This document shows positions 5,055 to 59,463 of a stretch of DNA of 64,000 nt, piece after piece. The stretch is taken from positions 1 through 64,000 of the forward strand of contig NZ_JAAHGH010000017.1 of NCBI RefSeq assembly GCF_010672525.1. Reading direction: 5' to 3'. A program made the translations under genes and the position numbers. The notes below the pieces were generated by a model. It was not told the origin of the DNA. It did no database searches and saw only the letters and a program-made list of their open reading frames with translations. The stretch's first letter is position 1, and every line of letters begins with the position of its first letter. This DNA comes from Okeania sp. SIO2B3 (GTDB lineage: Bacteria; Cyanobacteriota; Cyanobacteriia; Cyanobacteriales; Microcoleaceae).

Positions 5055-5870
5055 ATGTCTCAAATTACAAGTAAACTAACCGGTGTCTCTCGTACTATGG
5101 CCGCCACCCTGAAGACCAGAGCAGAAGAACAAGAGCGTCCTGACTGTCTGTTTCAAGACCCCTTAGCTGTACAGTGGCACAAACAATTGCCTCTAGATGA
5201 TGATATGGAAGCATCATATAATTTGGTAGGTGGTATATATCAAACCAGTTTGTCTACACGGTCTTATATTCATGACCAAATTACTTCTGGTCATATTGCT
5301 AACCATCCCCATCCTGTTGTTGTAGAATTGGGTGCGGGTTTATCTACTCGCTTTCACCGCATTGGACAGAATGTTAAATGTTGGCTAGACCTTGATTTAC
5401 CAGATGTAACAAATTTACGCCGTCAACTAGATTCTGAAACCGAGCAACACCAGTTTATTAGTGCTTCGATAATGGATTTTGACTGGATGAATTCTATTCC
5501 TGATGTGGGTTCTGAAAATATTTTATTCCTTGCAGAAGGCTTGCTCATGTACATTGAGCCAAATCAATTGCAGCAACTGGTTAAGGAAATGCGATCGCAT
5601 TTCCCTGGTGCAACTTGGGTAATGGATGTTATGGGTAATTCCTGTAAGTTATTATTAAATCAAGGGGCAGCTAAAATCGGAGCCCCACTTAAGTGGTTTG
5701 TGAAGAACGAACAAGACTTAGCCACCATGGGATTGCAAGTGGTCAATACTTGGCCTCTCTATAAACTATATCCAGAACGTTTTCCTTGGCAATGGCAACT
5801 ACCTTTGAAATTCCTTACCCAATTCCCCTACTTTCGTAATTTTTATCTAATTGTTGAAACTAAGCTATAA
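5055..5870 (+). CDS. SAM-dependent methyltransferase, Ppm1/LCM (TcmP-like) family
   Basis: The 271-residue protein has the layout of the leucine-carboxyl-methyltransferase/TcmP-like family, which O-methylates carboxyl or hydroxyl groups of small molecules or proteins. An N-terminal segment (RTMAATLKTRAEE, FQDPLA) is followed by the SAM motif VVVELGAGLSTRF near 88-100, an acidic loop LDLDLPDV, and FLAEGLLMYI near 158-167. It lies 264 bp after the assembly-line gene on the same strand, so tailoring of that product is a reasonable inference. The spacer holds a family D repeat, which may separate transcription. No good Shine-Dalgarno sequence precedes the ATG. A degenerate copy of its last 30 codons occurs at 9836-9931. 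Confidence 0.8.
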   Translation: MSQITSKLTGVSRTMAATLKTRAEEQERPDCLFQDPLAVQWHKQLPLDDDMEASYNLVGGIYQTSLSTRSYIHDQITSGHIANHPHPVVVELGAGLSTRFHRIGQNVKCWLDLDLPDVTNLRRQLDSETEQHQFISASIMDFDWMNSIPDVGSENILFLAEGLLMYIEPNQLQQLVKEMRSHFPGATWVMDVMGNSCKLLLNQGAAKIGAPLKWFVKNEQDLATMGLQVVNTWPLYKLYPERFPWQWQLPLKFLTQFPYFRNFYLIVETKL

Positions 5871-5964
5871 TTAGGTTTTGTTGCATGAAAGTTGCGATTA
5901 AGTATGAAGTTTAACGGTACGAGGTTAAGGTAGAAATTGTTCCTGGCGATCACGAATATATGCT

Positions 5965-6107
5965 TTACCGAAAAATTGTGGGTATGCGCCTCCCTTTTTA
6001 AAGGGATAAAAAGCGGTCTCCGGATGGCGAAGTCTCCTCGCTGGCCGACCATCGACCAAGAGAAAAGAGACTATTCCTTATTTCAAGCCTCCTTATTGCA
6101 GAGGTAC
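5965..6107. repeat. Family D dispersed repeat, copy 2
   Basis: The element begins TTACCGAAAAATTGTGGG, as at 6700 and (one mismatch) 48925, and ends near GCAGAGGTA. Its core has AAGCGGTC and a shuffled form of the GGATGGCGA/TCCTCGC motif of other D copies. It interrupts the thioesterase relic. Confidence 0.65.
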
Positions 6108-6180
6108 TGATAACTGATAACTGAAATGACCAACCTAGTGTAATACCAATTCCCATGCATTAATGCAAGACCTTGAGTAA

Positions 6181-6364
6181 TATCATGTCCGGTTGAACAG
6201 TTATAAATAAATAACGACGGAGTCCTCAGGAGTCAAGCCACCCCCGCCCCTCCCAGGAGGGGAAGGACCGAGTCAGGAGGTAAGAAGGAAGAAGGAAGAA
6301 GGAAGAAGAAGAACTGGAGTTGAAGGAGAAAGTTTTTTGATCACTAATTATCTGGACATGATAT
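6181..6364. repeat. Family A MITE-like element, uninterrupted copy
   Basis: The 184-bp element has terminal inverted repeats TATCATGTCCGG (left) and GGACATGATA (right) and is flanked by TAA on both sides, a likely 3-bp target duplication. Inside are a GC-rich CCCCTCCCAGGAGGGG module and a GAAGGAA heptamer run (6281-6308). It has no coding capacity. Its reverse complement matches the outer element at 21796-22509 and gives the empty sites for two insertions there. Confidence 0.85.
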
Positions 6365-6525
6365 AATACTTCAGTTATCAACTAATTAGCACAGGCCGAA
6401 TCATTTTTTTGCTAATTAGCAGCTCATTTAATGTTAATTATTCTTATGTTTACTTCCCCTCCCAGGAGAGGTTAGGGGTGGGTCCCCTGCTCAACAAAAT
6501 GTAGAAAAGTTTTTGAGAAATGATA

Positions 6526-6681
6526 TATAGCAATGAGCACTGGTATATTTACAAATTGCAGGAGGGGTCAAATAGCTAAAAGTCTTATATTATCGGCAAT
6601 TTATTCCCCTCCTGGGAGGGGGAGGGGCTAGGGGTGGGTTGCCTGTTGGCAGATGAGCTGTTGCCTGCGCACAGCGCTATA
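6526..6681. repeat. Family F MITE-like element, copy 1
   Basis: The ends are TATAGCAATGAGC on the left and GCACAGCGCTATA on the right. The internal sequence (GGTATATTTACAAATTGC, AGCTAAAAGTCTTATA) recurs at 49385-49500 and, inverted, at 22350-22482. This copy carries an extra GC-rich CCCCTCCTGGGAGGGG module. It is non-coding. Confidence 0.8.
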
Positions 6682-20417: not shown

Positions 20418-20518
20418 AATGAATAATTATTAACTATCAACTCTTAATTATTCATTATTAATTATTCATTATTAATTATTTGATAAACCCATCTATTAGT
20501 ACCTTTGACCAAAACAAA

Positions 20519-21766
20519 ATGGCTTCCATAGCTCGCAAAAATTTATTAGAAGATATTCCTCGGTTCATAGTAGCCCAAGCAGGGATATTATTTGCAGTCA
20601 GCTTAGTAACAATTCAAACAGGCATATTAAATGGGTTTGCTCGTTCCACAACCCTACTAATAGATAAATCCAATGCAGATATTTGGATCGCCTCTAATGA
20701 AATGGTCAACTTCGAGCTAACAGACCCCCTAATTTACGGTCAATTAAATCAAGCTAAAACAATAAAAGGCATCCAACAAGCAGAAGCTTTAATTTTAGGG
20801 TCAGTCAGATGGCGACCTCAGAATGGAGAAATGAGTCCATTAATGGTGGTTGGATTTAACCCAGATGGACAACTATTCAACCCAGGAAAAGTCATTGAAG
20901 GTAACCTCAGGGACCTAAAGCAACCATTCGCTGTGATGGCCGACCAAAGTAGATTATCCAGTATGCTTGCAGAAGGAGTAGGAACAACGGCGATCGCAGG
21001 TTCCCTACCAGCAAAATTAGTCGCAGTTACCAAAGGTACTCAGTCAATTGTATCCAGTACCTTGCTATTTACATCCCTAGAAAATGCTAATACATATATT
21101 AGTGCAGGTATTAACGCCGAAGTTAACTGCAAAGTTGTAGGAGCAGGAAATCTTCAATGTACAAAAGTAGTAGAAAAAAAAGACCCCACTCAAAAGTTGG
21201 AAGAAACGCCACCACCAAAAGAGTTAGAAGTAGCAGATCCGATCGCCTATATATTAGTCAAAGCTAAACCAGGTGAAGATTTACAAGTATTAAAACAAAA
21301 AATAGAAGAGGCGATGCCAGCTACTAATGCTTACACTAAAAATGAATTATCTGAAAAAACCAGATTTTTTTGGTTGGCACGAACAAATATTGGTTTAGTT
21401 TTGGGAATGGGTGCAGTAGTAGGTGTAATTGTAGGCATAGTAGTGGTCGCCCAGATTTTGTATTCATCTGTGTCCGATCACCTAAAGGAATTTGGTACTC
21501 TCAAGGCAATGGGTGCATCTGATAAGGAGTTGTATGCAGTAATTGTAGAGCAGGCAATTTGGATGGCAGTTTTAGGTTATCTCCCTGGGATGTTGGTGTG
21601 TTTAGGATTAAGTAGTTGGGTAGCAGGTAAAGGAATTATTATTTTGATTACACCTTTGTCTGCACTTGGAGTGTTAGGTATAACTGTTTTTATGTGTGTC
21701 GGGTCAGCTTTCTTTGCCATTCAAAAAGTAACTCGTATCGATCCTGCAATTGTATTTAAAGCTTAG
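20519..21766 (+). CDS. DevC-like ABC transporter permease (FtsX/MacB fold)
   Basis: The start ATG at 20519 (MASIARKNLLEDIPRF) fits DevC-type proteins better than an upstream in-frame TTG at 20480 inside AT repeats. It gives 415 residues. A first hydrophobic helix (VAQAGILFAVSLVTIQTGIL) is followed by a periplasmic MacB-like domain of about 260 residues, then three C-terminal helices of the FtsX domain, including IGLVLGMGAVVGVIVGIVVV and FGTLKAMGAS, the conserved coupling segment. DevC works with the ATPase DevA and the fusion protein DevB to export glycolipids or other large molecules. Neither partner is in the window, so this is an orphan permease here. Confidence 0.88.
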   Translation: MASIARKNLLEDIPRFIVAQAGILFAVSLVTIQTGILNGFARSTTLLIDKSNADIWIASNEMVNFELTDPLIYGQLNQAKTIKGIQQAEALILGSVRWRPQNGEMSPLMVVGFNPDGQLFNPGKVIEGNLRDLKQPFAVMADQSRLSSMLAEGVGTTAIAGSLPAKLVAVTKGTQSIVSSTLLFTSLENANTYISAGINAEVNCKVVGAGNLQCTKVVEKKDPTQKLEETPPPKELEVADPIAYILVKAKPGEDLQVLKQKIEEAMPATNAYTKNELSEKTRFFWLARTNIGLVLGMGAVVGVIVGIVVVAQILYSSVSDHLKEFGTLKAMGASDKELYAVIVEQAIWMAVLGYLPGMLVCLGLSSWVAGKGIIILITPLSALGVLGITVFMCVGSAFFAIQKVTRIDPAIVFKA

Positions 21767-21814
21767 AAATAATTTCAATACTACATCCTCTGTAATATCA
21801 TGTCCGGATAATTA

Positions 21815-22196
21815 GGGCTTGCTGAATAAAGTATGAGTGGTAGGAGTAGGAGACAGGAGACAACCCACCCGCGGGCCTCGACCCTGGAGGGGAAGACAGG
21901 AGACAACCCACCCGCGGGTCCCGACCCTGGAGGGGAAGACAGGAGACAACCCACCCGCGGGTCCCGACCCTGGAGGGGAAGACAGGAGACAGGAGTAAAC
22001 CCACCCCTAACCCCTCCCAGGAGGGGAATTTAGAAGAGGTAGGAGCTAAGTTTTGTCCTCAGATTTTTCTGTCCGAAGGTTTGCCTTTTATGCGTGCTTT
22101 TTTGAGGGTTTTAGACTAAAACCAACACACTTTTGGGGAATCAAAGAAGGTTCAAACCTTTACTTGTCAATGGTTTGATAATTAATCAGCAAGCCC
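21815..22196. repeat. Family B MITE-like element, copy 1 (nested in A)
   Basis: The ends GGGCTTGCTGA and TCAGCAAGCCC are perfect inverted repeats. TAATTA flanks both sides (21809-21814 and 22197-22202), while the uninterrupted A copy has a single TAATTA at this site, so this is a 6-bp target duplication. The left part holds a 43-bp tandem repeat. Confidence 0.88.
21852..21980. repeat. 43-bp tandem repeat, three copies
   Basis: Three units of 43 bp start at 21852, 21895 and 21938; each begins GACAGGAGACAACCCACCC and ends CTGGAGGGGAA. Units two and three are identical, and unit one differs at a few bases. The array lies inside the family B element. The spacing is too regular and spacers are absent, so it is not CRISPR. 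Confidence 0.9.
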
Positions 22197-22349
22197 TAAT
22201 TAGTGATAAAAAAACTTTCTCCTTCAACTCCAGTTCTTCTTCTTCCTTCTTCCTTCTTCTTTCTTACCTCCTGACTCGGTCCTTCCCCTCCTGGCTCCCC
22301 TCCTGGGAGGGGCGGGGGTGGGTTGACTCCTGAGGACTCCGTCGTTATT

Positions 22350-22482
22350 TATAGCGCTGTGCGCAGGCAACAGCTCCGGAAAGCAACAGCTCCGGAAGGG
22401 GGAATCAATTGCCGATAACATAAGACTTTTAGGTATTTGGCCTCTCCTGCAATTTGTAAATATACCAGCGCTCATTGCTATA
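22350..22482. repeat. Family F MITE-like element, copy 2 (nested in A, inverted)
   Basis: The ends are TATAGCGCTGTGCGC and GCTCATTGCTATA. Compared with the uninterrupted A copy the insertion sits in ATTTATTTATAAC with about 3 bp (TAT) duplicated. A short internal duplication of CAGCTCCGGAA is present. Confidence 0.8.
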
Positions 22483-22598
22483 TTTATAACTGTTCAACCG
22501 GACATGATATAATTCCCATTTCTCCTGAGTGCTGAGTTCTGAGTTCTAACTCCTACCCTTACCACTCATACTTTTTCAGCAAACCCTAATTAGGTGTT

Positions 22599-40626: not shown

Positions 40627-40816
40627 TAAGTAACTTCCTGTATAGTTAGCATTGGCGACAAGATTAATTAATATAGTTGTCGCTAAATAGATGGAAAAAA
40701 TCGCTCAGATTAAGACACAGCAGTAATTCCAGACTTTTTTAGATAGGAGGTAGTGAAATCCTTACTTGACTTGGGTTTGCCAGTTTTTTTTAGTCATAAA
40801 GCGACGAGTCTAATTA

Positions 40817-41091
40817 GGGCTGGCTGATTAAATCTCAAAGCATTGACAAGTAAAGGTTTGAGCCTTCTTGAATTCCCAAGGGGATGCGCTCTTAAGTAGT
40901 CTAAAACCCTCAAAAAGTTAGCATAAAAGGCAAACCTTCGGACAGAAAAATCTTAGGACAAAACGCCCGCTCTTACCTCCTCGCTCCCAAGCCATTTCTC
41001 CCCTCCTGGGAGGGGCCCGCGGGTGGGTTGTCTCCTGTCTCCAGTATAGCTGTCTCCTACCCTTACCCATAAGACTTTTGAGCGCAAACCC
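40817..41091. repeat. Family B MITE-like element, copy 2 (inverted)
   Basis: The element runs from GGGCTGGCTGA to GCGCAAACCC with TAATTA on both sides (40811-40816, 41092-41097). The ATTGACAAGTAAAGGTTTGA block and the CTAAAACCCTCAAAAAG block match copy 1 in reverse orientation. It contains a CCCCTCCTGGGAGGGG module and lies in the metK leader. Confidence 0.85.
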
Positions 41092-49384: not shown

Positions 49385-49500
49385 TATAGCAATGAGCGCT
49401 GGTATATTTACAAATTGCAGGAGAGGCCAAATAGCTAAAAGTCTTATATGATCAGCAATTTATTTCCCCAGATGAGCTGTTGCCTGCGCACAGCGCTATA
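49385..49500. repeat. Family F MITE-like element, copy 3 (minimal form)
   Basis: The 116-bp copy from TATAGCAATGAGCGCTGG to GCACAGCGCTATA lacks the GC-rich module of copy 1, so it probably represents the basic unit. Confidence 0.82.
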
Positions 49501-59048: not shown

Positions 59049-59162
59049 AAAAAGCTAAGAAAAAACTTAAAAATTGGCGTTGCTCAATGATTTTATGATT
59101 TTTTAGTAGTCAATAGCTAGTAGTTAAAAGAGTTTTTTCTTTCCCAATAGTGACAATATTTA

Positions 59163-59351
59163 GGATTTGCTGAAAAAGTCTTTTTTAAGGAGTAGGGGAG
59201 TAGGGGAGTAGGGGAGTAATTTTTGGGCTACTCTCCTGCCCAAAATGCTGACTTTTTGAGCATAAAGCAGCTCAAAACTAGGTACTTTTTCCAGAGTAAA
59301 AAAGGCTAAAACCTTTATATATAAATGCTTTGATCTTTAATCATCAAGCCC
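59163..59351. repeat. Family B MITE-like element, copy 5
   Basis: The left end GGATTTGCTGA and the right end TCATCAAGCCC are flanked by TATTTA on both sides (59157-59162, 59352-59357), so here the duplicated target is not TAATTA. It contains an AGTAGGGG tandem run. Confidence 0.85.
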
Positions 59352-59463
59352 TATTTAGACCTTAGTATTATCAACCTTGAATCTTCACTTTCAAAAGTTT
59401 CATACCTCCATTCAGCAACGCCTAAAAATCTGTTCATTTCAATACATTAAACTTTGTGTTTGT

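Follow-up and report, generated by a model that had tools for sequence, protein, structure and literature searches.

Nested short elements of three families in an Okeania spacer and the insertion sequences that may have moved them

Background

How did several short repeats come to lie one inside another in a single intergenic spacer, in which order did they arrive, and which enzymes could have moved them? These questions are raised by a spacer of Okeania sp. SIO2B3, whose left neighbor is a permease gene (20480-21766) with FtsX and MacB_PCD domains. We analyzed it within a window, by which we mean the whole 64,000-nucleotide stretch examined, on contig C79 of a 10.0-Mb, 249-contig genome that is 99.85% complete. 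An original prediction, made from the window alone, had described a family-A element holding one B and one F insertion and had proposed that the three families could be ordered in time.

Architecture of the nest

Three kinds of short non-autonomous elements are nested in this one spacer, and the nest is real. Its features, together with the uninterrupted A copy used for comparison, are as follows.

6181-6363, plus strand: uninterrupted family-A copy of 183 bp, with TAA at 6178-6180 and 6364-6366
About 21780-22586, minus strand: outermost layer B0, a truncated older B-type MITE interrupted by A, from matches to uninterrupted B copies
21793-21795, no strand: left TAA target duplication of A, with the right copy at 22510-22512, read from the sequence
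21796-22509, minus strand: interrupted family-A MITE with ends TATCATGTCCGG and CCGGACATGATA, from alignment to the reverse complement of 6181-6364 and from genome copies
21809-21814, no strand: left TAATTA duplication of the inner B, with the right copy at 22197-22202, read from the sequence
21815-22196, plus strand: inner B MITE of 382 bp with ends GGGCTTGCTGA and TCAGCAAGCCC, from the sequence and genome copies
22352-22480, plus strand: F MITE of 129 bp with ends TAGCGCTGTGCGC and GCGCTCATTGCTA, with TA at 22350-22351 and 22481-22482

The A element at 21796-22509 is the 6181-6363 copy in reverse, interrupted by the B and F insertions. Against the reverse complement of 6181-6364, taken with some flank, block 22197-22352 was identical at 141 of 156 positions with one 12-base gap and block 22481-22510 at 30 of 30, the alignment being broken at the B and F ends as had been predicted. 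Without B and F and with one copy kept of each duplication, the nested A comes to 195 bp by coordinate arithmetic, and its difference from the 183-bp copy is due to the 12-base gap. The uninterrupted copy is a paralogue at another locus, and orthologous evidence comes from other Okeania genomes. The predicted coordinates of B, with its TAATTA duplication, were exact. The comparison copy, given as 184 bp, exists but stops at 6363, since base 6364 is already part of its TAA duplication, and the F insertion, placed at about 22350-22482 with a duplication of about TAT, is present at 22352-22480 (TAGCGCTG...CATTGCTA) with a duplication of TA.

The A element itself sits in an older, truncated B-type element. 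The surviving B0 end, TCAGCAAACCC, lies at 22576-22586 and is followed by TAATTA at 22587-22592; a second B0 end was looked for at the locus and not found, the other end being lost on the permease-gene side. When the A flanks were joined at one TAA, they matched the interior of two uninterrupted B copies across the junction (28/30 for L029 and 26/29 for L035) and reached the B end at 22586 (40/44 and 41/44, respectively), and a B search also matched 22550-22586. Movement of B at this locus therefore took place on either side of A in time: A came after one B and before a second B and F, and these last two, neither nested in the other, are not ranked. The proposal that A preceded B and F thus holds for the inner elements here but is rejected as a dating of the families, since A lies in an older B.

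Nesting was also counted among 53 A, 23 B, and 34 F copies from the loci fetched at that stage. With matched duplications we identified F in A 3 times, B in A twice, and A in A, A in B, B in B, and F in B once each, although three of these cases are weak, resting on 40-46 bases. The A-in-A and F-in-B cases cover few bases (46 and 43) and might stem from the GC-rich interior common to the families, and a nesting at L208 was discounted at 40 bases and 86% identity only. The A, B, and F families overlap in time.

Several further features were noted. The inner B carries approximately 3 tandem copies of a GC-rich unit some 43 bases long at 21850-21985 (GACAGGAGACAACCCACCCGCGGG...GGAGGGGAA, read by eye), and a CCCCTCCTGGGAGGGG-type GC-rich interior is common to A and B (34/39 match) although their ends differ. 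More F-type ends, B-type ends or copies, and one A-type end occur in the window at 6526-6681, 49385-49500, 40815-41045, 42696, 52591, 59161-59353, and 30148.

Copies and target duplications of the three families

The nest reading depended on other copies sharing the A, B, and F ends, and a genome-wide search found them. Exact 17-base ends occurred 155 times for A and 580 times for B, with 0 for the control in both searches, and F gave at least 44 matching stretches (40 of 212 candidates scored), a recurrence that is not due to chance. All three families have the properties of MITEs, being short, non-coding, and multicopy, with terminal inverted repeats and a duplication of fixed length: TNA in A, TANNTA in B, and TA in F.

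Among 73 elements with A ends, which include sub-families with other interiors, identical flanking 3-mers were found in 62, compared with 1, 2, 0, 0, and 0 for identical 1-, 2-, 4-, 5-, and 6-mers; a smaller, earlier count gave 50 of 59 with identical 3-mers. TNA stood on both sides of 68 elements, with the middle base agreeing in 62 of them against a chance expectation of 0.44 (P ~4e-16). An identical 6-bp duplication, always TANNTA, flanked 23 of 30 B copies, and 28 of the 30 were 189-382 bp long. In 36 F copies, of which 18 were 128-129 bp long, the flanks outside TATAGC/GCTATA agreed at 1 base in 17, at 2 in 4, and at 3 in none, and uninterrupted A sequence shows a single TA at 3 nested F copies. 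By this flank count TAT was replaced with TA as the F duplication, the extra T being a chance neighbor.

TAATTA in the A end as a possible preferred landing site for B

The genome has 74 exact copies of the A end ATCATGTCCGGATAATTAGKKHT, of which 66 continue as A and 7 as a B start (GGGYT), with 1 ambiguous. A recognizable B right end was present in 6 of the 7 B-bearing ends, and A resumed directly after it in 5. Taking TAATTA-flanked B ends as 492, or about 246 filled sites, and 11,412 TAATTA sites outside ORFs, an estimate extrapolated from this one window (73/100 sites; 37 of 41 listed ORFs, 4 overlapping ones dropped), 1.6 B insertions would be expected at TAATTA in 73 A ends, where 7 were seen (P ~0.001). 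With each of the 492 ends counted as its own site, the same extrapolation gives 3.1 expected (P ~0.04). The excess is modest and suggestive of a hotspot.

The 7 B-bearing copies need not all record separate events. B-in-A composites might have multiplied as units, a reading that we consider unlikely but that has points in its favor: an A with B inside retains both A ends, 2 of the 7 (L313 and L314) have an odd GGGTTTGCGTATGGAA start in common, and identity among the inner B copies of L310, L311, and L312 (0.85-0.89) is higher than in 90% of other B pairs. Those three supply all 3 of the 21 inner-B pairs exceeding the 90th percentile (0.85) of other pairs, and they might share a history. Against multiplication as units, mean identity over the 21 pairs of the seven inner copies is 0.80, equal to the 0.79 over 276 pairs of 24 B copies outside A (a background that excludes all seven), L313 and L314 are only 0.78 identical, and inner B copies occur in both orientations, with L311 opposite to L310 and L312. 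Because inner copies are as unlike one another as B copies outside A, most of the inner B insertions look independent, and we retain repeated insertion as the preferred reading.

The locus in related genomes

Among best matches, identity of the permease protein is 91-97% in Okeania, followed by 87-90% in Trichodesmium and Hydrocoleum. The joined flanks have 95% identity (204/214) in Okeania sp. SIO1I7 (L137), where A is present at the same TAA and the F site is uninterrupted, that is, empty. A B-type element occupies the same TAATTA in opposite orientation and with a different sequence, which shows repeated use of the site and not a common B, and ordering by this allele was rejected. The B-bearing A is followed by another MITE with A ends, after which a second A stands in tandem; the L137 allele is therefore not a simple counterpart of the nest. 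The tandem A copies at 5314-6017 of L137 have a single TTA between them, a layout that simple insertion does not explain. In Okeania SIO3B5 (L140), CTCTGTAATTCCCATTTCT occurs in the matching spacer with one TAA, beside a B-type end, and is a candidate empty A site, though the match is short (21/22); the same spacer carries several other MITEs with A-type ends at 5397-6513 (TATCATGTCCGGTTGAATA...GATGCTACCGGACATGATA). In other relatives, the spacer is filled differently.

The rearranged, tandem A copies of L137, together with the GC-rich interior common to A and B, could be taken to mean that the nest arose by recombination between those interiors and not by insertion. This is very improbable, given that the breaks fall exactly at ends known from other copies and carry duplications of the length specific to each family. 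Insertion thus remains the preferred reading, and we turn to the enzymes that may have performed it.

Candidate parents of the A, B, and F families

The original prediction also proposed looking for full-length relatives encoding a transposase with the same ends. Candidate parents were found, with the A end TATCATGTCCGG on both sides of L183 and on one side of L184, and the ends of other candidate parents similar or matching. In the SIO2B3 genome itself, transposase matches numbered 12 for PF01609, 8 for PF13358, and 7 for PF13359, many of them short or with stops, and no autonomous A, B, or F was present in the first loci examined.

For A, the only fairly complete parent-type element seen in this genome was L162 (the same place as L176), a 1.17-kb element with a PF13358 domain and ends TATCAAATCCGGTAGCATCGG, which depart from the A ends in 2 bases out of 12. 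The transposase of L162 is divided between two overlapping frames close to a run of A, and its flanks are unlike (TTA and TGA). A decayed PF13358 locus of the same genome, L167, retains one end, TATCATGTCCGGTAGCATCGG. When the L162 transposase was searched against 61 genomes of the family, matches were obtained in 50. We examined 36 IS630-type loci for ends, 30 from this search (one being the genome's own copy) and 6 others from the SIO2B3 genome, and identified ends of the ATAT/ATAC kind in 17, other ends in 2, and none in 17. In 14 of the 17 ATAT/ATAC-ended loci the TNA flanks were identical, each of the four possible middle bases occurring among them; L176 and L178 had TNA flanks with differing middle bases, and L161, the F-type parent, was not flanked by TNA. 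The A-type parents thus carry a 3-bp TNA duplication in 14 of 16 cases and not the 2-bp TA duplication expected of IS630.

These TNA-type IS630 elements span five genera, and 13 of the 16 are 1130-1176 bp long, the remaining three being 986, 1427, and 1660 bp. The IS630 model NF033545 was over its cut-off for 3 of 4 proteins tested (L178, L183, and L162), a fragment, L164, scoring below it at 79.7 of 100 bits, and DDE_3 (PF13358) was over cut-off in all 4 A-parent-type proteins tested. The D-to-E spacing was 31 in 12 of 12 readable loci among the 16, with 4 unread; these spacings come from a looser motif, a stricter first motif having missed most loci, and spacing and duplication are tied only in loci where both are readable. 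L165 has a spacing of 31 with other ends, and L189 has both a 31 and a 34 motif. By its transposase the A parent is a relative of IS630, and it differs in its duplication. The A parents are likely IS630-family elements of approximately 1.16 kb whose transposase is of the DD31E type and which duplicate 3 bp, TNA.

An IS630 element at 1386-2515 of L164 ends in TACCAATTT with TCA/TCA flanks. The TACCAATTT motif is common in cyanobacterial spacers, and TACCAATT stretches in spacers, including one in the window at about 22612 to the right of the nest, could represent TNA-group MITE ends.

TNA duplications are known for IS5 subgroups (IS1031/ISL2), and PF01609 or PF13359 transposases exist in the genome, but an origin of A from such an IS5-type or a PIF/Harbinger-like system instead of IS630 is highly unlikely, as IS630 loci from five genera carry TATCA..TCCGG-type ends, the likeness of L162 and L167 extends to GGTAGCATCGG, and A ends, with 2 mismatches allowed, flank a PF01609 or PF13359 transposase in 0 of 19 loci. 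We therefore keep the IS630-type candidates for A.

For F, a decayed IS630 element of about 940 bp in the SIO2B3 genome, L161, has ends TATAGCAATGTGCGCTGG, one base different from the F right end TATAGCAATGAGCGCTGG, and is for that reason the likely F parent. This one decayed copy has a PF13358 match over cut-off, a D-to-E spacing of 34, and TA adjoining both ends, and the F parent is accordingly put forward as a likely DD34E IS630 element with a TA duplication. Within one genome, two IS630 lineages appear to be separated by the length of the duplication, TNA going with DD31E and TA with DD34E.

For B, no copy with a transposase was seen in the loci fetched from the SIO2B3 genome, and no frame in a 658-bp B pair on C24 exceeds 81 aa. 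In the loci then fetched, B pairs 600-2800 bp apart were limited to the nest, L137, and, in another genome, a 1.09-kb partial element. A remnant inside the B pair of L170 was rejected, its frames being broken and the pair consisting of a B with an older truncated B next to it. In five genomes of one other genus (g9), the source of all candidate long B parents, B ends lie about 1.65 kb from each other. Eight such elements are 1654-1688 bp long, 7 of them with identical TANNTA flanks, and their transposases carry DUF772 and DDE_Tnp_1_2; both proteins tested scored far over the cut-off of 275 for the IS5 model NF033578 (466 and 474 bits). The B parent is likely an IS5-family element of approximately 1.67 kb with a 6-bp TANNTA duplication. 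A 2.85-kb B-type IS from another genus (L279, 10-2858) has within it an interrupting frame whose D-to-E motif is IS630-like (spacing 36), and nesting is thus found in full-length elements too.

Discussion

Taken together, the ends, duplications, and transposase matches suggest that the spacer between the FtsX/MacB-type permease gene and the next genes is very probably a stack of cut-and-paste MITEs, for each of which a full-length insertion sequence with the corresponding ends supplied the transposase in trans. An old B was present first, A inserted into it at TAA, and A then received a second B at TAATTA and F at TA. We infer that an IS630-family transposase of a DD31E group, duplicating 3 bp (TNA), moved A; that a DD34E, Tc1/ISY100-like IS630 transposase, duplicating TA, moved F; and that an IS5-family transposase (DUF772 and DDE_Tnp_1_2), duplicating 6 bp (TANNTA), moved B. 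The TAATTA just inside the A end has been struck repeatedly by B in both orientations, and no host function for the elements need be supposed.

Nested MITEs are an ordinary phenomenon; the most unusual finding here is the bacterial IS630 group with TNA and DD31E. A bolder proposal, which we regard as possible though rather doubtful, is twofold: that the A parent represents an undescribed bacterial IS630 group, in which DD31E and a 3-bp TNA duplication exist beside DD34E/TA relatives in the same genome as a counterpart of the eukaryotic IS630-Tc1-mariner groups that depart from the TA rule, and that the TAATTA inside the A end is a true landing site preferred by the IS5-type B. A limited literature search, with most subscription papers and ISfinder outside its scope, found no report of a TNA duplication for bacterial IS630. 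The split between TNA/DD31E and TA/DD34E bears on how Tc1/mariner-type enzymes set target stagger, a question that would be testable in bacteria. The recurrent B-in-A insertions at one site mean that nesting order dates insertions and not families. The nest provides duplication lengths, ends, and event order for three families in fewer than 900 bases, checked against relatives.

Comparison with known systems

The B parents resemble the IS5 family in scoring far above the NF033578 cut-off and in carrying DUF772 and DDE_Tnp_1_2, and differ from its subgroups, whose duplications are 2-4, 8, and 9 bp long, in their 6-bp TANNTA duplication. Nezha elements of cyanobacteria are reportedly short, non-coding, inverted-repeat MITEs that are mostly intergenic.

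ISY100 (ISTcSa), an IS630/Tc1-mariner element of Synechocystis, is described as moving by cut-and-paste and inserting almost only at TA, which it duplicates as F does, whereas the A group combines a 3-bp TNA duplication with DD31E (PMC2170065). Three-base duplications are known within the IS630-Tc1-mariner group from the eukaryotic Fot elements. Fot and Fot-like pogo elements are like the A group in having a 3-bp duplication (TAA) instead of TA, but they are eukaryotic, longer, and of pogo type, and they duplicate TAA or TAAA and not TNA (PMC7386202). Nesting of elements is already known, as indicated by a pipeline step, outlined in PMC3852290, that separates elements nested "as Russian dolls"; the text of one review (PMC10969869) contains neither "nested" nor "IS630." The MITEs of the cyanobacterium Anabaena sp. 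90 are likewise short, non-coding, and mostly intergenic with inverted repeats, and were reported as unmatched to the ISs of that genome (PMC3542288), whereas A, B, and F have candidate parents with matching ends and duplications.
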